From Tahibacter harae (GTDB lineage Bacteria > Pseudomonadota > Gammaproteobacteria > Xanthomonadales > Rhodanobacteraceae): a DNA stretch of 64,000 nucleotides. Under the pieces are notes generated by a model. That model saw nothing but the letters and a program-made list of their open reading frames with translations. It did not search any database and was not told the origin of the DNA. The DNA lies in the NCBI RefSeq assembly GCF_024437735.1, contig NZ_JANFQO010000012.1, positions 62,001 to 126,000 on the forward strand, given 5' to 3'. The position numbers and the translations under genes were made by a program. Positions 2,766 through 11,608 of the stretch are shown in pieces. The first letter of the stretch is position 1. The number at the start of each line of letters is the position of its first letter.

Positions 2766-3554
2766 ATGTCCCTGCCGCAACCCGACCACACACCCAGCAC
2801 GGCCTATTTCGCCGCGGCCTGCTGCCGCAACTGCGGCGCGGTGCTGCACGGCCCACACTGCGCCCAATGCGGGCAGAAGAAAGCGCAGCGGCTGGGCCTG
2901 GGCAATCTGCGCAGCGAGGCCTGGGAGAAGCTGCGCCTGTTCGAGATCGACGCGCTGCAGTCCGCCCTGCGCCTGCTGACCGGCCCGGGCCGGGTCGCCC
3001 ACGAATACGTACTGGGCATGCGCAAGCGGCATACCCATCCGCTCAAGCTGCTGCTGCTCGCCATCGCCGTGCTGCTGCTCGTGCTGGCGCAGACGCGCTA
3101 CCTCGATTCGGCCGACGCCAATGTGTCGAAGACGCTGGCGGTGATCCGCAAATACGCCGAATGGTCGTTCTCGCTGGGCCTGGCCGCGGTCTGGCTGGCC
3201 TCCATGGCCGTGTTCCGGCGCTGGCGCGGCTACAACGCCGCCGAACACCTGGTACTGGCGCTGTACACCCAGTTCCTGATCATCCTGGCCAACATCCTCA
3301 ACCAGCTGCCGCTGCTGTTCCTGCGTGCGCCCGGCTGGCTGGCCTGGCACCGGGCCTGGTCTGGCCGCTACATGGACCTGATCGAACTTGCCCTGGTGCT
3401 GCTGGCCTGCACCCAGTTCTTCCAGCTCGATTTGCGCCGCCACTGGTGGCGCCTGGCGCTGGCCGCCGCCGTGTTCGTGCTGAGCAAGAAGCTACTTATC
3501 TATTTGTACTCCTGGCTCCTGGTCAAGCTGGTGCTGGCCAAGCTCATTTCCTGA
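2766..3554 (+). CDS. DUF3667 family membrane protein
   Basis: A 262-residue protein with an N-terminal zinc-ribbon-like module (CRNC at residues 20-23, CAQC at 32-35), then a conserved WEKLRLFEIDALQSALRLLTGPG segment and four or five hydrophobic helices. This architecture is that of DUF3667, a family of unknown function in Lysobacterales and Bacteroidetes. It lies between a divergent phosphatase gene and a co-directional metalloprotease-like gene whose ATG is 23 bases downstream, so the two may share a transcript. Confidence 0.85.
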   Translation: MSLPQPDHTPSTAYFAAACCRNCGAVLHGPHCAQCGQKKAQRLGLGNLRSEAWEKLRLFEIDALQSALRLLTGPGRVAHEYVLGMRKRHTHPLKLLLLAIAVLLLVLAQTRYLDSADANVSKTLAVIRKYAEWSFSLGLAAVWLASMAVFRRWRGYNAAEHLVLALYTQFLIILANILNQLPLLFLRAPGWLAWHRAWSGRYMDLIELALVLLACTQFFQLDLRRHWWRLALAAAVFVLSKKLLIYLYSWLLVKLVLAKLIS

Positions 3555-5544: not shown

Positions 5545-7167
5545 CTATCCCCGCGCCGCCTCGCGTATCTGCGCAAATTCCAGCTCGAATCGTTTGAGGT
5601 ATTTGCGCAGCCGGTCTGCGTCGTTGGTGGAACTGCGCTTTTCGCGACTGGCCTGGAACAGCGTCCGTCCCGCTTCGCTGGCACTGCGCGAGGCGGCACA
5701 GACGCGCAGCACTTCGACCAGTTGCACGCGGTCGAAGCGGTCGAGATCGGCGACGCGATCGCCGAGCAGGGTTTCGAGCAGCGCGTCGTCATCGCCGCCG
5801 TTGCCGCCGCGGCGTGAATTGCCCCAGATACGGCCCAGGCGGCGGGTTTCCTCGTCCACCACTTCGACCGTGATGCGGCCCTGCGGTGCCAGCGTGGCCA
5901 TGCGCGTGACTGACGCGCCCAGATCGCGGAAATTGCCGGGCCACGTCGCGTCGACGCTCATGGCGAAGCGCAGGTAGCGTTCGCGCGCCTCGCGGTTGAA
6001 GGTGACGCGCTCACTCTGCTGGCGCGCGTAGCGTTCCAGCTCGAAGTCGAGGTTGGGCTCGATATCCTCGCTGCGCTCCTTCAGGCCCGGCAGGTAGAAG
6101 GTCCACAGGTTGAGGCGCGCGTAAAGATCCTCGCGGAAGCGGCCCTGGGCCACGGCTTCGGCCAGGTCGCGGTTGGTGCCGGCGATCAGCTGGAAATCGC
6201 TGCTGACTTCGCGGTCGCCGCCCAGCGGCGGGAAGCGCTTATCCTCGATTGCGCGCAGCAGCATGGCCTGTTCGTCCAGGCCCAGCTCGCCGATCTCGTC
6301 CAGGAACAGCAGGCCGCCGTCGGCGCTCTTGAGCAGGCCGGCGCGCTCGCCCTGGGCGCCGGTGAAGGCGCCGCGCACATGTCCGAACAGCGCACTGCCG
6401 GCGCCGTCGCCGCGCAGGGTGGCGCAGTTCACTTCGACGAAGCGGCCCTTGAGGCTGTGCCGGCTCTGCTTCAGCTCGAACAAATTGCGCGCGAGCATGC
6501 TCTTGCCCGCACCGGTAGGCCCCAGCAGCAGCATCGGCGCCTTGGAGCGCACGGCCACGCGTTCGATCTGCTCGATCATGCGGTTGAAGGTCGGGCTGCG
6601 CGTGGCGATGCCGCTCTTGAGAAAGCTGTTGGTATCGTCGCGTTCGCGCGCGAAGCGCTGGGCGATACGGTCGTAGCGCGCCAGGTCCAGGTCGATGATG
6701 GTGTACTTGCCCGCATCGCCCACGCGCTGCTTGGGCGGCGGCGAGGTCTGCAGCAGCCGCGCCGGGAAGAAGCGTGCCTCGGTCAGCAGGAACCAGCAGA
6801 TCTGCGCGACATGGGTACCGGTGGAGATATGCACCAGATAGTCCTCGCGCTCGCTGTCGAACGGATAGCGGCGGGCGAACTCGTGGAGCGCGGCAAATAC
6901 CTGCTCGAAATCCCACGGATCGGCCAGGAAGGTGTCGTGCAGGCGCACCTCGGTTTCCGGACTGACCTGCCCCAGGTCGGCGCGGATGCGCTCGGCCAGC
7001 TTGGCGTAGCGGCGCTCGTCCAGCAGCAGTTCCACGCGGGAGACCAGCAGGTCCTCGAACATGCCCAGGGCTACGGTAGGCCGCCAGCGCTCCCAGCGCC
7101 CCGGGCCGTCGGCCGCGTCCAGCACGGTGCCGATGAAGCCGATCACGACCAGTGGCTTGCTGCGCAT
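5545..7167 (-). CDS. rtcR: Sigma-54-dependent transcriptional activator of RNA repair genes
   Basis: A 540-residue bacterial enhancer-binding protein. Residues 1-185 match the RtcR N-terminal ligand-sensing domain (CARF-like), including the segment VHISTGTHVAQICWFLL. The AAA+ domain has Walker A GPTGAGKS (216-223), the sigma-54 contact loop GAFTGA (266-271) and Walker B GLLFLDEI (285-292). The C-terminus ends in a helix-turn-helix (SRSASEAGRTLFQASREK). RtcR activates rtcBA from a -24/-12 promoter after sensing RNA damage products, such as 2',3'-cyclic-phosphate tRNA fragments. Here it is divergent from such a promoter at 7295-7310, about 1.4 kb from rtcB. Confidence 0.95.
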   Translation of the reverse strand: MRSKPLVVIGFIGTVLDAADGPGRWERWRPTVALGMFEDLLVSRVELLLDERRYAKLAERIRADLGQVSPETEVRLHDTFLADPWDFEQVFAALHEFARRYPFDSEREDYLVHISTGTHVAQICWFLLTEARFFPARLLQTSPPPKQRVGDAGKYTIIDLDLARYDRIAQRFARERDDTNSFLKSGIATRSPTFNRMIEQIERVAVRSKAPMLLLGPTGAGKSMLARNLFELKQSRHSLKGRFVEVNCATLRGDGAGSALFGHVRGAFTGAQGERAGLLKSADGGLLFLDEIGELGLDEQAMLLRAIEDKRFPPLGGDREVSSDFQLIAGTNRDLAEAVAQGRFREDLYARLNLWTFYLPGLKERSEDIEPNLDFELERYARQQSERVTFNREARERYLRFAMSVDATWPGNFRDLGASVTRMATLAPQGRITVEVVDEETRRLGRIWGNSRRGGNGGDDDALLETLLGDRVADLDRFDRVQLVEVLRVCAASRSASEAGRTLFQASREKRSSTNDADRLRKYLKRFELEFAQIREAARG

Positions 7168-7234
7168 ATCCCTGCCCCTTGCTTATCCAACCGGATAATA
7201 CACGAGCCCGCTGGAGCGGTAACAATAGCGGATC

Positions 7235-7286: not shown

Positions 7287-7294
7287 GTCGCACT

Positions 7295-7310
7295 TGGCAC
7301 GGCCCTTGAT
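7295..7310 (+). promoter_or_regulatory. Sigma-54 (-24/-12) promoter for the leader RNA and rtcBA
   Basis: The sequence tggcacggcccttgat matches the consensus TGGCACG-N4-TTGCW, with the invariant GG and a near-complete -12 element. Transcription would start near 7320 and run toward rtcB. The divergent neighbour rtcR encodes the matching activator. Confidence 0.8.
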
Positions 7311-7461
7311 ATAGGAACTCCGCGCCGGGATGAGCCGGTGCCGGGCCGGCGGGCCTGGCGACGGCGGAACAGGGCAAATCCTCTCCCTTTTCCGCCGGCG
7401 CTGTTTCGCCGCCGCACCGGTTCCCGACCTGGCCCCGGGCGCACGCGGCAACAGGAGAAAT

Positions 7462-7487
7462 GGCCGCAGCGAATTGGCGCTGCGGCC
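7462..7487 (+). ncRNA. AATTGG-loop hairpin, copy 1
   Basis: A perfect 10-bp stem (GGCCGCAGCG with CGCTGCGGCC) closes an AATTGG loop. A second copy with compensatory changes is at 7911-7936. Confidence 0.55.
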
Positions 7488-7506
7488 GCATTGGATACGG
7501 AGGTTT

Positions 7507-7647
7507 GGACGCCGCGGCAAATGTCCGCAGGACTACAGAAGGTTGGCTCCCTGACGGGTGCGAGGCGGCGCGCCTCGGCGGCGCGCCACCACGGCAACGG
7601 ACCAGGCCGCGCCGACCATGTCTTGCCTCGCTGTTGCCGGGGCGTCC
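7507..7647 (+). ncRNA. Y-RNA-like module 1
   Basis: The end strands 7507-7520 (GGACGCCGCGGCAA) and 7634-7647 pair over 14 positions with one mismatch. The 5' strand runs into GGCAAATG and the 3' strand carries TGTTGCC, resembling bacterial Y RNA Ro-binding strands. The loop has GGACTACA at 7530-7537 and ATGTCTTGC shortly before the 3' strand, an element shared with module 2. Confidence 0.5.
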
Positions 7648-7681
7648 AATCCGTTCGGACCAGGAAGGTCCGTAAGCAGTA

Positions 7682-7708
7682 CATCCCTGGCGCGACGCGC
7701 CAGGGATG
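7682..7708 (+). ncRNA. Stable 12-bp hairpin in the leader
   Basis: CATCCCTGGCGC (7682-7693) pairs perfectly with GCGCCAGGGATG (7697-7708) around a 3-base GAC loop. No T-run follows, so it is not a simple terminator. It separates modules 1 and 2. Confidence 0.6.
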
Positions 7709-7722
7709 CAGGGAGCAGGGGG

Positions 7723-7875
7723 TTGCCCGCAACGGCGAATGCCTGCAGGACTACATAGGGAATCAGCGCTCAGGCATGCCCAGGTGAAAGTCCCGGGCCG
7801 GTGGTTAGACACCGTGGCGGAATACAGACGCACTGATTGAATGTCTTGCGATCCATTTGTCGCCGCGGCGTGCAA
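7723..7875 (+). ncRNA. Y-RNA-like module 2
   Basis: The strands 7723-7738 and 7860-7875 pair with internal mismatches (TTGC/GCAA, CGC/GCG, CGGCGA/TCGCCG). The 5' side gives GGCGAATG and the 3' side TTTGTCGCC, the same asymmetric pair seen in the other modules. GGACTACA lies at 7748-7755. A CGGTG-GTTAGA-CACCG hairpin near the 3' part looks D-arm-like, but no clear T-arm is present. Confidence 0.5.
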
Positions 7876-7910
7876 TCGGAGGCCGGAACGGAAGTCCGGG
7901 ACTGAAAAAT

Positions 7911-7936
7911 GGTCGCGGCGAATTGGCGCCGTGGCC
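7911..7936 (+). ncRNA. AATTGG-loop hairpin, copy 2
   Basis: A 10-bp stem (GGTCGCGGCG with CGCCGTGGCC, two G-U pairs) has the same AATTGG loop as the hairpin at 7462-7487. One A-U pair in copy 1 is a G-C pair here, a covariation supporting selection for RNA structure. Confidence 0.55.
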
Positions 7937-7938
7937 GC

Positions 7939-8019
7939 CGCAACGAATGCGTGTGCTGGAATGCGACGGCGGATCCCGGCAGGGCTGCATCAGTGGACGA
8001 AACGCGCAAGGGCGTTGCG
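7939..8019 (+). ncRNA. Possible Y-RNA-like module 3 (weak)
   Basis: CGCAACG (7939-7945) pairs with CGTTGCG (8013-8019). The 5' strand continues as AACGAATG and the 3' strand contains CGTTGCG, similar to the other modules. The GACTACA element is absent and the stem is short, so this is the least certain unit. Confidence 0.3.
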
Positions 8020-8112
8020 AGGTGGAAACTCCGCCGCACGAACCCGGCACCGCCGGCCAGGACGAAGAGATCCCGTCCGCACAAAGGATCTCGCCAGTTT
8101 CAGGCAACACCT

Positions 8113-8225
8113 GTCAGTGCGGTCCTGCGGCAAGCGGCGAATGCCCCGCCGGGACTACACCTGTCACGTGCGCGCTCTCGGCGACTGCTGTCTCTCGTCG
8201 CCGCTTGCCGCAGGACCGCACTGAC
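8113..8225 (+). ncRNA. Y-RNA-like module 4 with perfect 28-bp stem
   Basis: 8113-8140 is perfectly complementary to 8198-8225 (28 base pairs) around a 57-base loop. At the loop end the 5' strand gives GGCGAATGCC and the 3' side gives TCTCGTCGCCGC. GGGACTACA is at 8151-8159. The size, about 113 bases, fits bacterial Y RNAs. Confidence 0.6.
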
Positions 8226-8239
8226 GCCATAGAAGCGGT

Positions 8240-8343
8240 GTTGCTGCCGCAAGCGGCAAATGCCAGGCGGGACTACATTTTTCCAGAATGGCAAGGTCTC
8301 GCCAGCTGCACCTTGTTGCCGTTTGCTGCAGCAACATTTTTTT
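8240..8343 (+). ncRNA. Y-RNA-like module 5 ending in a T-run
   Basis: 8240-8259 pairs with 8316-8335 over 20 positions (one C-U mismatch, one G-U pair). The 5' side reads GGCAAATGCC and the 3' side CCTTGTTGCC. Relative to module 6 a G-C pair becomes A-U on both strands. GGGACTACA is at 8269-8277. Seven T residues (8337-8343) follow the stem, so the unit could also act as an intrinsic terminator. Confidence 0.6.
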
Positions 8344-8365
8344 GGACACAGAATCGCCTGCGGCC

Positions 8366-8444
8366 TTGCCGCAAGCGGCGAATCCCGGGCGGGATTACAT
8401 CCCAAAACGAATCTCGCCCACGACCTTGTCGCCGCTTGCTGCAG
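8366..8444 (+). ncRNA. Y-RNA-like module 6
   Basis: 8366-8381 pairs with 8429-8444 with the same internal C-U mismatch seen in module 5. The 5' strand gives GGCGAATCCC and the 3' side CCTTGTCGCC, a good match to the remembered Ro-binding consensus strand CNUUGNC. The loop element is GGGATTACA (8391-8399). Its 3' strand overlaps the start of the final module by five bases. Confidence 0.55.
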
Positions 8445-8584
8445 TGTCGCGAATGCCTGCCGGTCTACAGTTAATGCGTGAGTCGCGGGTTCAAGTCCCG
8501 CCGGTGCCGGAACGCTCCTGCCGGCGCCGTAGCTCAGATGGGTAGAGCAACGATCCGACTGGCGACTCTTGTCGCGACAGTGCA
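8440..8584 (+). ncRNA. yrlA: YrlA-type Y RNA with circularly permuted tRNA mimic
   Basis: The ends pair (8440-8452 with 8572-8584, one mismatch). Inside, tRNA parts occur in permuted order. A T-arm comes first (GCGGG 8485-8489, loop TTCAAGT, CCCGC 8497-8501). Next is a 9-bp acceptor-like stem (8502-8510 with 8521-8529) closed by a 10-base loop, then TA at tRNA positions 8-9. Last is a D-arm (GCTC 8532-8535, loop AGATGGGTA, GAGC 8545-8548). This is the layout described for YrlA RNAs, where the paired ends replace the anticodon arm. The stem carries GCGAATG and CTTGTCGC. It ends 24 bases before rtcB, the position yrlA occupies in rsr-yrl-rtcBA operons. No CCA end or anticodon loop exists, so it is not an ordinary tRNA. 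Confidence 0.75.
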
Positions 8585-8608
8585 CACAGAAGAAGAACGA
8601 GAATCACC

Positions 8609-9832
8609 ATGGACACTTCACTACACCAGACTCTGCAGGATCCCGGCGCCGTTCCGGTCAAGGCCTGGATCAACGGCGTCACCCTGGACAGCAAGGCGCG
8701 CGACCAGCTGCGCAACCTGGCGCGCCTGCCCATCGTCGGCCCCTGGGTCGCGGCGATGCCGGACGTACATGCGGGCATAGGCGCGACTGTGGGGTCGGTG
8801 GTGCCTACCGCAGGCGCCATCATCCCGGCCGCGGTCGGCGTGGACATCGGCTGCGGCATGATGGCCTACCAGACCACGCTGAGCGTCGGGCAGCTACCGG
8901 ACTCGCTGCGCGACATACGCCACGATATTGAACGCGCAGTGCCGCACGGCTTCGTCACCGTGCCGGGACGCAGCCTCAAGGGCAACTGGGTGATCGCGCC
9001 GAACTCGGCCGGCACGCGCTGGCGCGGGTTGGAGCAGCGCTACCGGCGCCTGGTCGAGCGGCATCCGCGCATCTCGCACAAGTCGCCGCTGAGCCAGCTC
9101 GGCTCGCTGGGCGGCGGCAATCATTTCATCGAGTTGTGCCTGGACGAGGCCGGCAAGGTCTGGGTGATGCTGCACTCGGGCTCGCGCGGCGCCGGCAATG
9201 CGATAGGCCAGTACTTCATCGAAAAGGCGCGCAACGAGATGCAGAAGCAGCAGGCGAATCTGCCCGACCGCGATCTGGCCTATTTCAGCGAAGGCAGCGT
9301 GCTGTTCGACGACTACGTGGCCGCAGTGGAATGGGCGCAGGAATACGCCGCACAGAACCGCGAGCAGATGATGGAGACCGTGCTCACGGTACTGCGCAAG
9401 CATCTGCCGGCGTTCCAGCTCACCCGCATGGCGATCAACTGCCATCACAACTATGTGCAGCGCGAGACGCATTTCGGCCGCGAGCTGTTCGTGACCCGCA
9501 AGGGCGCGGTCAGCGCGCGCCAGGGCCAGCTGGGGATCATCCCGGGCAGCATGGGCGCGAAGAGCTTCATCGTGCGCGGACTGGGCAACGAGGAAAGCTT
9601 CTGCTCCTGCTCCCACGGCGCCGGCCGCGTAATGAGCCGTACCGAGGCCAAGAAGCGCATCACCCTGGGCGAGCACCGCGAAGCCACGGCGCATGTGGAA
9701 TGCCGCAAGGATGCGGACGTGATCGACGAATCGCCGGCGGCCTACAAGCCGATCGACGCGGTGATGGAGGCGCAGCGCGATCTGGTCGAGATCGTGCACA
9801 CGCTGCGCCAGGTCGTCTGCGTCAAGGGCTAA
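8609..9832 (+). CDS. rtcB: RNA-splicing/repair ligase RtcB
   Basis: A 407-residue GTP- and Mn2+-dependent ligase joining RNA 3'-phosphate or 2',3'-cyclic phosphate ends to 5'-OH ends. Length equals the E. coli enzyme. Metal ligands are visible in GVDIGCGM (Asp79, Cys82), GGGNHFIE (His172) and MLHSGSRGAGN (His189). INCHHNY (His279/280) and the guanylylated His in SHGAGR (His336) are also present. It is the first protein gene after the sigma-54 leader and is followed 13 bases later by an unknown gene, then rtcA. No archease gene is seen nearby. Confidence 0.97.
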   Translation: MDTSLHQTLQDPGAVPVKAWINGVTLDSKARDQLRNLARLPIVGPWVAAMPDVHAGIGATVGSVVPTAGAIIPAAVGVDIGCGMMAYQTTLSVGQLPDSLRDIRHDIERAVPHGFVTVPGRSLKGNWVIAPNSAGTRWRGLEQRYRRLVERHPRISHKSPLSQLGSLGGGNHFIELCLDEAGKVWVMLHSGSRGAGNAIGQYFIEKARNEMQKQQANLPDRDLAYFSEGSVLFDDYVAAVEWAQEYAAQNREQMMETVLTVLRKHLPAFQLTRMAINCHHNYVQRETHFGRELFVTRKGAVSARQGQLGIIPGSMGAKSFIVRGLGNEESFCSCSHGAGRVMSRTEAKKRITLGEHREATAHVECRKDADVIDESPAAYKPIDAVMEAQRDLVEIVHTLRQVVCVKG

Positions 9833-9845
9833 GGGGAGATGAGCC

Positions 9846-10523
9846 GTGCGCAGTGACATGCATGAAGTGCTGATAGAACGTCCCCGCGGCGGCCTTCGCC
9901 TGAAGACGCCGCGGGGAAACAAGCCTCGTGTACGGGAATGGACCGGCAGTGAGGACGATTACGCCCGCAGCTACCGGCCCAGGCAGCCGCGCACCAAGCA
10001 TTTCGACGATCTGCTGTCGCCGCTGCGACGCTGGCTGCGGCATCAGGTGGGCCGGCCGTGGGACAAGGTATGGAGTGAGCTGTGCGGCGGCATCGACTCG
10101 CGCAGCGTAGTCGGTCAGCATCTGCTGGAGCATGTGCGCCGCGAAGTCGCCGTCGATTGCGCCTACGATCCGGTGCGGCGGCGCGTGGTGACCAAGGAAC
10201 AGCGACGCGGGCATGATCTGGTCGACGGGCTTTATGTGGATCCGCGCCATTGCCTGCTGTGCTGGAAGCAGCCGGAGCGGCGACGCAGAGCGCTGGTCTT
10301 TTTGGGAGAGGTATCAGGCGATACGCGAAAAGTTTCCCCGGACCGTTTCCAGTTCAGGCGGAACGGTATCTGGTTCGAAGCCGAGGTCACGCCATTGCCC
10401 TACGCTCCGCGCTACCGCGTGGAACCGCATATCCGGTGGTTCGACGGCTGCTACACCATCGTGCGCAAGCGCCAGCTCAGTTCGCGCGAACTGCGCGAAC
10501 ACGGATTGAAGAACGACGCCTGA
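9846..10523 (+). CDS. Uncharacterised basic protein between rtcB and rtcA
   Basis: A 225-residue protein. The GTG at 9846 was preferred because AGGGGAG lies 7 bases upstream; an in-frame ATG is at 9858. It is rich in Arg and Lys. The central block SYRPRQPRTKHFDDLLSPLR, followed by WDKVWSELCGGIDSRSVVGQ and HLLEHVRREV, looks like a conserved family core. A later HCLLCWKQP could bind a metal but lacks a full Cys set. There is no signal peptide or membrane segment, so it is cytosolic. Placement inside rtcB-rtcA suggests an RNA-repair or RNA-binding role. That is inferred from context only; I do not recognise the fold. Confidence 0.8.
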   Translation: MRSDMHEVLIERPRGGLRLKTPRGNKPRVREWTGSEDDYARSYRPRQPRTKHFDDLLSPLRRWLRHQVGRPWDKVWSELCGGIDSRSVVGQHLLEHVRREVAVDCAYDPVRRRVVTKEQRRGHDLVDGLYVDPRHCLLCWKQPERRRRALVFLGEVSGDTRKVSPDRFQFRRNGIWFEAEVTPLPYAPRYRVEPHIRWFDGCYTIVRKRQLSSRELREHGLKNDA

Positions 10524-10555: not shown

Positions 10556-11608
10556 ATGAACAAGAGAACGGATTCCCCCATAGAACTCGACGGCGCCCAG
10601 GGCGAAGGCGGCGGACAGATCCTGCGCAGCGCCCTGGCGCTGTCCATGCTCGGCGGCCGCCCGCTGCGCATGAGCAATATCCGCGCCGGCCGCAGCAAGC
10701 CCGGGCTGATGCGCCAGCATCTGGCCTGCGTGCGCGCGGCGGCGGAAGTCTGCGATGCCCAGGTGGAAGGCGCGGAAATCGGCGCCACCGCGCTGAGCTT
10801 CCGGCCGGGCACCACGCGCGCGGGCGACTACACCTTCAAGGTCGGCAGCGCCGGCAGCACCATGCTGGTGCTGCAGACCGTACTGCCCGCGCTGCTGCGC
10901 GCCGGCGCACCCAGCCGGCTGCTGCTGGAAGGCGGCACGCACAACCAGATGGCGCCGTCGGCGGATTTCGTCGCCGGCGTGTTCCTGCCGCAGCTGCGGC
11001 GCATGGGTGCGCAGGTGTCGATGAAGCTGCACCGGCACGGCTTCTATCCGGCCGGCGGCGGCCTGGTCGAGGTCGGGATCACGCCCGCGCCGCTGGTCCC
11101 GCTGCAGCTGCTGCAGCGCGGTGCCGGCGCGGGCATGGATGCGAATGTGCTGCTGCGCACGCTGCCGCGGCATATCGGCGAGCGCGAACTCGAAGTCGCG
11201 CTGCGCCGGCTGCCGCTGGCGAGCTCGCAGATCGAGCACCTGCCGCAGAGCTTCGGCCCGGCCAACGCACTGGTGCTGCGCGCGGATTTCGAGCACGTCA
11301 GCGAGATCGTGGTCGGCCTGGGCGAGCACGGCGTCAGCGCCGAGCGCGTCGCCGACGGCGCCTGCGACGAATTGCTGCACTACCTCGCCCACGGCGCGCC
11401 GGCCGGCGAGCACCTGGCCGACCAGCTGCTGCTGCCGCTGGTGATTGCCGGCGGCGGCTGCTTCGTCACCGGGCGGCCCAGCCCGCATCTGGAGACCAAT
11501 GCGGCCGTGATCCGCGCCTTCGGCGCCGCCGCGGTGAGCATCGCGCCGGACGACAGCGATCCGCAGCGGCGCTACCGCGTCACGGTCGAAGTCGGCGCGG
11601 ACCGGTGA
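10556..11608 (+). CDS. rtcA: RNA 3'-terminal phosphate cyclase
   Basis: A 350-residue enzyme that uses ATP to convert RNA 3'-phosphates to 2',3'-cyclic phosphates. Family signatures are [20 protein letters not shown] near the N-terminus, [13 protein letters not shown], and the conserved LEGGTHN / PAGGG blocks. The adenylylated His is probably His286 in the [11 protein letters not shown] segment, equivalent to E. coli His309. It is the last gene of the sigma-54-controlled operon, 32 bases after the preceding stop. Confidence 0.95.

Follow-up and report, generated by a model that had tools for sequence, protein, structure and literature searches.

The closest described system to the locus studied here is the rsr-yrlBA-rtcBA operon of Salmonella Typhimurium which, in the excerpted text of its report (Hughes et al. 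2020; PMC7790460), has a divergent rtcR, Y RNAs of the YrlA and YrlB types, rtcB and rtcA in one operon, and σ54 control. The same excerpts name 5' tRNA fragments that end in a cyclic phosphate as activators of the Salmonella RtcR (PMC7790460). In Deinococcus radiodurans, excerpts of two reports describe RYPER, in which the Ro60 homologue Rsr is tethered to PNPase by a Y RNA (PMC8394870, PMC7790460). Two Rfam families are relevant: YrlA (RF02553), with a Ro-binding stem, a CUACA element and a permuted tRNA-like domain, and YrlB (RF02565), a simple hairpin with a Ro-binding motif.

In this study, we analyzed a 64-kb stretch of Tahibacter harae DNA (the window), which carries all the features of the Salmonella operon listed above except rsr. 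As far as the Salmonella excerpts go (PMC7790460), the Tahibacter arrangement differs in that rsr lies on another contig with a second rtcB, that six Y modules stand in place of two, and that an extra protein is encoded between rtcB and rtcA. By analogy with the excerpted descriptions of RYPER (PMC8394870, PMC7790460), the modules would be expected to serve as Rsr-binding tethers. The last module of the window has all three YrlA features, and three others (type B) share the simple hairpin and Ro-binding motif of YrlB, two of these copies scoring 26-29 bits against a gathering score of 97 and the third not being listed. The remaining kind (type C) matches RF02553 weakly (23.7 bits) and, in its orthologues, is class II tRNA-like with altered T and D loops.

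Results

The window holds, in order, rtcR on the minus strand, a σ54-type element, a GC-rich leader of 1.3 kb, rtcB, a gene for a 225-aa protein and rtcA (Table 1). Of the elements that define an rsr-yrl-rtcBA operon, rtcR, rtcB, rtcA and Y RNAs are found together, and rsr is absent from the operon. We take the N-terminal domain of RtcR to be CARF-like. The first-pass annotation of this DNA had placed a -24/-12 promoter in front of a non-coding leader and rtcB, and this layout holds. We partly shaped the search pattern on this promoter, which is its sole exact match in the 64 kb; with one mismatch allowed there are two matches against 0.84 expected, a number reached in 24 of 100 shuffles. The form TTGGCACG-N4-TTGAT recurs in the leaders of four relatives (G382, G291, G400 and G399), and CTGGCACG-N4-TTGAT in that of G012. 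Between rtcR and the promoter, a palindrome, TTATCC-N4-GGATAA (7183-7198), is a candidate operator, of which the window and the five same-genus loci of this type have one copy each. The 225-aa protein matches no Pfam or NCBIfam family, and its AlphaFold model (pLDDT 77, pTM 0.54) gave no match at E ≤0.001 in a fold search of the PDB. A relative is encoded by 230 stretches in the genome collection; of the 80 loci kept, 42 have an rtcB relative in the fetched flank.

Table 1. Features of the rtc locus (window positions) and, in the last three rows, tRNA genes in or just after related RtcR-type operons
Feature	Position	Strand	Basis or remark
rtcR, σ54 activator	5545..7167	-	NF038308 806 bits (cut-off 650), PF06956
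-24/-12 σ54-type promoter TTGGCACGGCCCTTGAT	7294..7310	+	pattern match
Short hairpin GGCCGCAGC-GAAUUG-GCGCUGCGGCC, begins ATGGCCGCAGCGAAT	7462..7487	+	diverged second copy 7904-7938
Y module 1, first type C place, diverged insert	7507..7647	+	R1 32 bits, R2 21.6 bits, fold z -3.45
Y module 2, type C, Ro-binding stem and permuted tRNA-like domain	7725..7873	+	R1 128.8 bits (window copy in model), RF02553 23.7 bits
Type C remnant, 3' half lost	7963..8051	+	type C likeness from alignment by eye; repeat family D2
Y module 3, type B, YrlB-like hairpin with a perfect outer stem of 28 bp	8113..8225	+	R3 75.5 bits (included in model), fold z -9.3
Y module 4, type B	8239..8336	+	RF02565 29.3 bits, R3 95.3 bits
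Y module 5, type B	8359..8444	+	RF02565 26.5 bits, R3 84 bits
Y module 6, type A (YrlA; permuted tRNA-like domain of class I)	8444..8581	+	RF02553 67.8 bits, R2 105 bits (included in model)
rtcB, RNA ligase	8609..9832	+	PF01139 432 bits
225-aa protein, often near rtcB	9846..10523	+	between rtcB and rtcA
rtcA, RNA 3'-phosphate cyclase	10556..11608	+	PF01137
tRNA gene	L022:6603-6679	-	Asp(gtc) or His(gtg)
tRNA genes	L024:3204-3280, 3287-3360	-	Asp(gtc) or His(gtg)
tRNA gene	L166:6701-6776	+	Asp(gtc) or His(gtg)

Where six or seven stem modules had been annotated in the leader, purpose-built models (R1 from type C, R2 from type A, R3 from type B) find six, with match extents of 7513-7640, 7731-7866, 8122-8213, 8241-8331, 8363-8444 and 8445-8578. 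The seventh is a remnant that keeps the 5' half only (GGCGGAUC) and has no stable fold, 188 of 200 shuffles folding as well. This count replaces one of five obtained with a regular expression. The array thus runs from a diverged C through a second C and the C remnant to three B and one A. The stem strands of the modules vary between G-C and A-U pairs as the first reading had it: from module 1 to 6, the 5' strands are GGCAAAUG, GGCGAAUG, GGCGAAUG, GGCAAAUG, GGCGAAUC and CGCGAAUG, and the 3' strands GUUGCCG, UUGUCGC, UCGUCGC, UUGUUGC, UUGUCGC and UUGUCGC. The GGGACTACA-like element, initially assigned to six modules, occurs in some form in all seven (ACTACA four times, GTCTACA, ATTACA, and GCTGCA in the remnant). 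By single-sequence fold energy, modules 1, 3, 4 and 5 beat all 200 shuffles and module 6 is only weakly better than shuffles (z -1.72, 13/200 as good); for module 2, 35 of 200 shuffles fold as well (z -0.93). Repeat and fold tools agree with the modules first drawn, except for modules 2 and 6 when judged by energy alone. A stretch at about 7658-7680 resembles SRP RNA by eye.

Rfam Y RNA models do recognize the leader, but no match in the window reaches a gathering threshold. YrlA at 8446-8581 scores 67.8 bits (E 5.4e-15), 1.2 bits short of its threshold of 69, and the G400 orthologue of this module exceeds it with 78.8 bits. Further matches below gathering are two of YrlB (8248-8327 and 8370-8440) and a weak one of YrlA (7732-7869). 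Rows for micro-RNAs, group II introns and the like were set aside as chance or simple-hairpin matches. Since R1-R3 include window sequences, what they score in the window does not count as independent evidence. Module 1 scores weakly with every model. Independent support for the predicted modules is the Rfam match together with compensatory changes.

The Ro-binding stem has the consensus GNCGAAN0-1G / CNUUGNC. The stem of module 6, CGCGAAUG / CUUGUCGC, agrees with it but for one base (C for the first G), and six of its seven pairs change on both sides over 50 matches. Module 6 also has tRNA-like T, acceptor and D arms, and permuted class I tRNAs of its own genome score up to 67.0 against it (best of 100 shuffles, 51.5). 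Module 2 stays below the gathering score of RF02553 and has the general marks of a Y RNA, a Ro-binding stem and a CUACA element; in type C, GCGAAUG and GGACUACA are identical in 5/5 same-genus copies and the 3' strand reads UNGUC in all five. The predicted covariation was recovered in alignments that were fitted to their models and so favor structure (slid controls, 33-54% paired). For YrlA (50 matches from the region), 97.0% of cells are paired and 17 of 23 pairs show both-side changes, with 0/500 shuffles as good; for type C (six sequences), 94.0% are paired and 10 of 37 pairs show both-side changes, a number reached by 4/500 shuffles, and its further pair types are reached by 26/500. On these grounds the modules look like real Y RNAs.

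Could the array instead consist of repetitive extragenic palindromes, or of chance structure in GC-rich DNA? The leader is indeed GC-rich, and module 2 and the remnant fold no better than shuffles. Against this, the modules are conserved across species, and the genome-wide repeat check came out in their favor. Among the best 150 of 4108 candidates in the 5.99-Mb genome, the type B model finds the three window modules, two minus-strand matches lying on them and one chance-level match (E 0.59), and among the best 8 of 2290 the type C model matches at the rtc and rsr loci only. The confinement of type B matches among these candidates to the leader, the chance-level one aside, indicates that the modules are not scattered palindromes, and we regard this explanation as close to negligible.

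Among the eight Tahibacter genomes compared (T. harae included), the leaders between rtcR and rtcB of G382, G291 and G400 share the module kinds of the window and their order, with compensatory changes: C-B-A in G382 and G400, and C-C-B-A in G291. The leader of G012 (100% complete) has no Y module and its genome no rsr; in G399 (87% complete) no rsr was found and the modules are decayed. The short hairpin near the start of the leader is kept in 6/6 same-genus leaders of this type, including these last two, and its diverged second copies in the window and G291 keep the stem through matching changes. In the form GGCCGCAGC-GAAU-GCUGCGGCC, the hairpin precedes module 1 of the window and both C modules of G291, a diverged copy precedes the C remnant, and none precedes window module 2. 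This placement suggests that the array may have grown by duplication of a hairpin-plus-C unit.

The first-pass annotation had also noted the lack of a Ro60 gene, which is true of the window and wrong for the genome. Pfam TROVE has no match in the T. harae genome and, across the order, finds short stretches in 16 of 398 genomes, eight of them over the cut-off. Several of those genomes have a full rsr. We dropped TROVE as a test for Ro60 and used an alignment of seven Rsr proteins. The genome-wide search for a TROVE-type protein, blank with Pfam, then returned one full-length gene on contig C45 (E 3e-261) and no other match, which rules out Y RNAs without Ro60 in this genome. At the C45 locus, a σ54-like promoter (TGGCACAGCGCTTGCC) is followed by rsr, then by two YrlA RNAs and finally by a second rtcB, 63% identical to that of the window; neither rtcR nor rtcA was found in the 19 kb taken. 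A single full RtcR gene was found in the genome.

With the Rsr alignment, Rsr is found in 6/8 Tahibacter genomes. G324 and G398 have the classical order of rtcR, rsr, two or three YrlA, rtcB and rtcA, while G291, G382 and G400 carry rsr apart from the rtc operon, as T. harae does. One YrlA lies beside the split-off rsr in G291 and none in G382 or G400. In the Rsr tree, the four split genomes form one clade (96/94) inside a six-row group with G324 and G398 (94/95), a topology that one split within Tahibacter would explain. In the RtcB tree, the window RtcB groups with G324 and G398 (100/100), and the second RtcB joins operons with rsr from other genera, part of which belong to the same family (96/90).

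The presence of Y modules follows that of rsr. We searched 41 loci with the models and classed 36, leaving out L145, which has no assigned rsr status, and L060, L061, L062 and L064, which are rsr loci without rtcR and have 2, 0, 1 and 0 modules. Modules are present in 24/24 operons of rsr-bearing genomes (20 with rsr in the operon, four with it elsewhere) and in 1/11 rsr-less operons, counts that are not independent, as the genomes are related; a Fisher test on them therefore exaggerates the association. Several genomes are metagenome-assembled. The one exception, G045, seemingly retains the start of rsr, a reading made by eye. For G399, G668, G631 and G045, which are 80-90% complete, the absence of rsr is less sure. 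The remaining operon, from G698 with a doubtful distant Rsr, has no modules. In that genome, one of two RtcR genes (L229) lies about 1 kb from the distant Rsr-like stretch (45.9 bits), with no rtcB found in the 11 kb taken. The count covers neither L225, L229, L232 and L149, which were annotated outside the model search, nor L028-L033, where no rtcR was found. Not counted as modules were L092 (19 bits), L227 (26.8 bits, tRNA-like part only), a second L024 match (tRNA-like part only), the second part of one L065 module, far-off matches in L078, L215 and L020, and minus-strand type B matches.

These data bear on whether the leader is chiefly a cis-acting 5' UTR of rtcB that stabilizes the message or delays translation, its likeness to Y RNAs being inherited without function as separate RNAs. 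The GGCCGCAGC hairpin in leaders without intact Y modules (G012, G399) fits this account and gives part of the leader a role independent of Y RNAs. That the modules come and go with rsr, and that their Ro-binding strands covary, speaks against it, and we judge this account quite improbable.

In the 20 sampled operons with an rsr of their own (18 from within the order, plus L166 and L222 from outside), 2-5 modules lie between rsr and rtcB, with three or four in 16. The six of the window are the most seen, so that the cluster, called expanded at first, is only moderately so and represents the long end of a common pattern and not a new architecture. In the rsr-rtcB gap of L218 (4700-5600, reversed strand), a unit of mostly 124 nt that includes a Y module's 5' half occurs seven times; its final copy runs on into a full Y RNA, and the assembly has ten N there.

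The far end of type C consists, in order, of a closing stem, a small arm, and T-arm-like, acceptor-like and three-pair D-arm-like hairpins. A tRNA cut at its anticodon loop and joined at its acceptor end has its arms in this order, and the small arm then stands where class II tRNAs carry their variable arm. The domain of module 2 has a class II-like form in its orthologues, of which three same-genus genomes carry four copies. We compared type C cores, cut by hand, with 44 distinct tRNA sequences of the T. harae genome cut and joined in the same way, against shuffles that keep base content only. The four leucine tRNAs ranked on top for G400 (70.5, 60.5, 57.5 and 56.0, all above the best shuffle of 51.5), for copy 2 of G291, the copy taken there in place of copy 1 (three above the best shuffle of 50.0), for G382 (one above the best shuffle of 51.5, at 59.0), and for the copy of G052, which is more distant and lacks the arm (one barely above and one equal, 47.5 and 47.0 against 47.0). 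For window module 2 the best match is leucine (cag) at 46.0, under the best of 100 shuffles (46.5), with valine and tyrosine tRNAs next, and the case for a leucine tRNA therefore rests on the orthologues. The G400 arm, CGCCGCAAGGC, is identical to that of the T. harae leucine (caa) tRNA. A T-loop-like stretch is kept in 49/50 YrlA rows of the region; in type C of the genus, the T loop UUCRANU has become YGAAAGY and the D loop lacks GG, so that the two sides of the tRNA elbow have changed together.

Type C may constitute a new bacterial Y RNA subfamily, a circularly permuted leucine tRNA with its variable arm and a jointly replaced elbow, that serves a role specific to leucine tRNA; we offer this tentatively and consider it rather unlikely. 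If true, type C would attach to Rsr, or keep away from it, a leucine-tRNA-specific partner, be it a tRNA enzyme or a nuclease with leucine tRNA as its target, and the array would be a set of scaffolds with different cargo, induced upon tRNA cutting.

The tRNA likeness also invites the view that these Y RNAs persist mainly because they act as tRNA decoys, aimed at a nuclease that cuts tRNA or at a tRNA enzyme, and that Rsr does no more than stabilize them. Permuted tRNA-like domains of two classes fit this view, as does a row of tRNA-like genes in an RtcR operon (L227) of a genome in which no rsr was found; Hughes et al. are also invoked here. A permutation that opens the anticodon loop does not fit, nor do type B modules, which have no tRNA-like part, and decoy action as the main role seems improbable to us. 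The L227 row (L227:2169-2383, plus strand) consists of three tRNA-like genes directly after a σ54-like promoter, with anticodons aga, agt and one unassigned; decoys are a possible reading of these genes themselves. Separately, three relatives have intact-looking tRNA genes within their RtcR-type operons or immediately behind them (Table 1). Anticodons beginning with GU make up the set cut by colicin E5-like nucleases, and all of these tRNAs have GU-initial anticodons; they could be spare tRNAs induced with repair.

Discussion

The proposal that the window contains a Y RNA cluster under putative σ54/RtcR control upstream of rtcB is supported by sequence homology, conserved order and covariation. 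The finding of rsr on another contig, with a σ54-like promoter, YrlA RNAs and rtcB of its own, points to a split rsr-yrl-rtcBA system. We think it likely that T. harae has a split Ro60-Y RNA-RNA repair system in which one RtcR would serve two σ54 promoters and Rsr would act in trans. RtcR, of which one full copy was found in the genome, would respond to the ends of broken tRNAs by activating the leader operon of the window and, by conjecture, the rsr operon of C45. The former would deliver six Y modules, rtcB, the small protein and rtcA, and the latter rsr, two YrlA RNAs and the second rtcB. The modules might, we speculate, be cut out of the long leader, and their shared stem (RCRAAUG-type / UUGUCGC-type) would, by analogy, bind the Rsr ring in trans. 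The differing far ends (plain hairpin, class I tRNA-like and leucine-tRNA-like) may then offer Rsr several scaffolds that gate it or tether, for example, PNPase, and one may imagine different partners for the three module types. By analogy with the described systems, tRNA damage would turn on both operons and so raise repair enzymes, Rsr and about eight Y RNAs together. For Tahibacter, tRNA-fragment sensing, Rsr binding and PNPase tethering are inferred from the Salmonella and Deinococcus work.

Several points count against the split reading. Modules 2 and 6 do not clearly outfold shuffles, the YrlA of the window stays just under its Rfam threshold, and module 1 scores weakly throughout. In G382 and G400 rsr has no Y RNA at its side, which makes action in trans an assumption for them as well. 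Further, none of the rsr loci fetched from the genus, that of T. harae among them, has the palindrome found before rtcR.

Pfam TROVE misses or barely sees the Rsr of this order, so that calls of Y RNAs without Ro60 need a closer search. That rsr and the Y modules are kept or lost together supports Rsr as the reason for the presence of the Y RNAs, and indicates that Y RNAs and the Ro60 homologue can part in the genome and still share one fate. Three Y RNA forms in one leader provide a compact natural set for asking what the far end does, and the leucine-tRNA-like form makes the question of tether or decoy testable.
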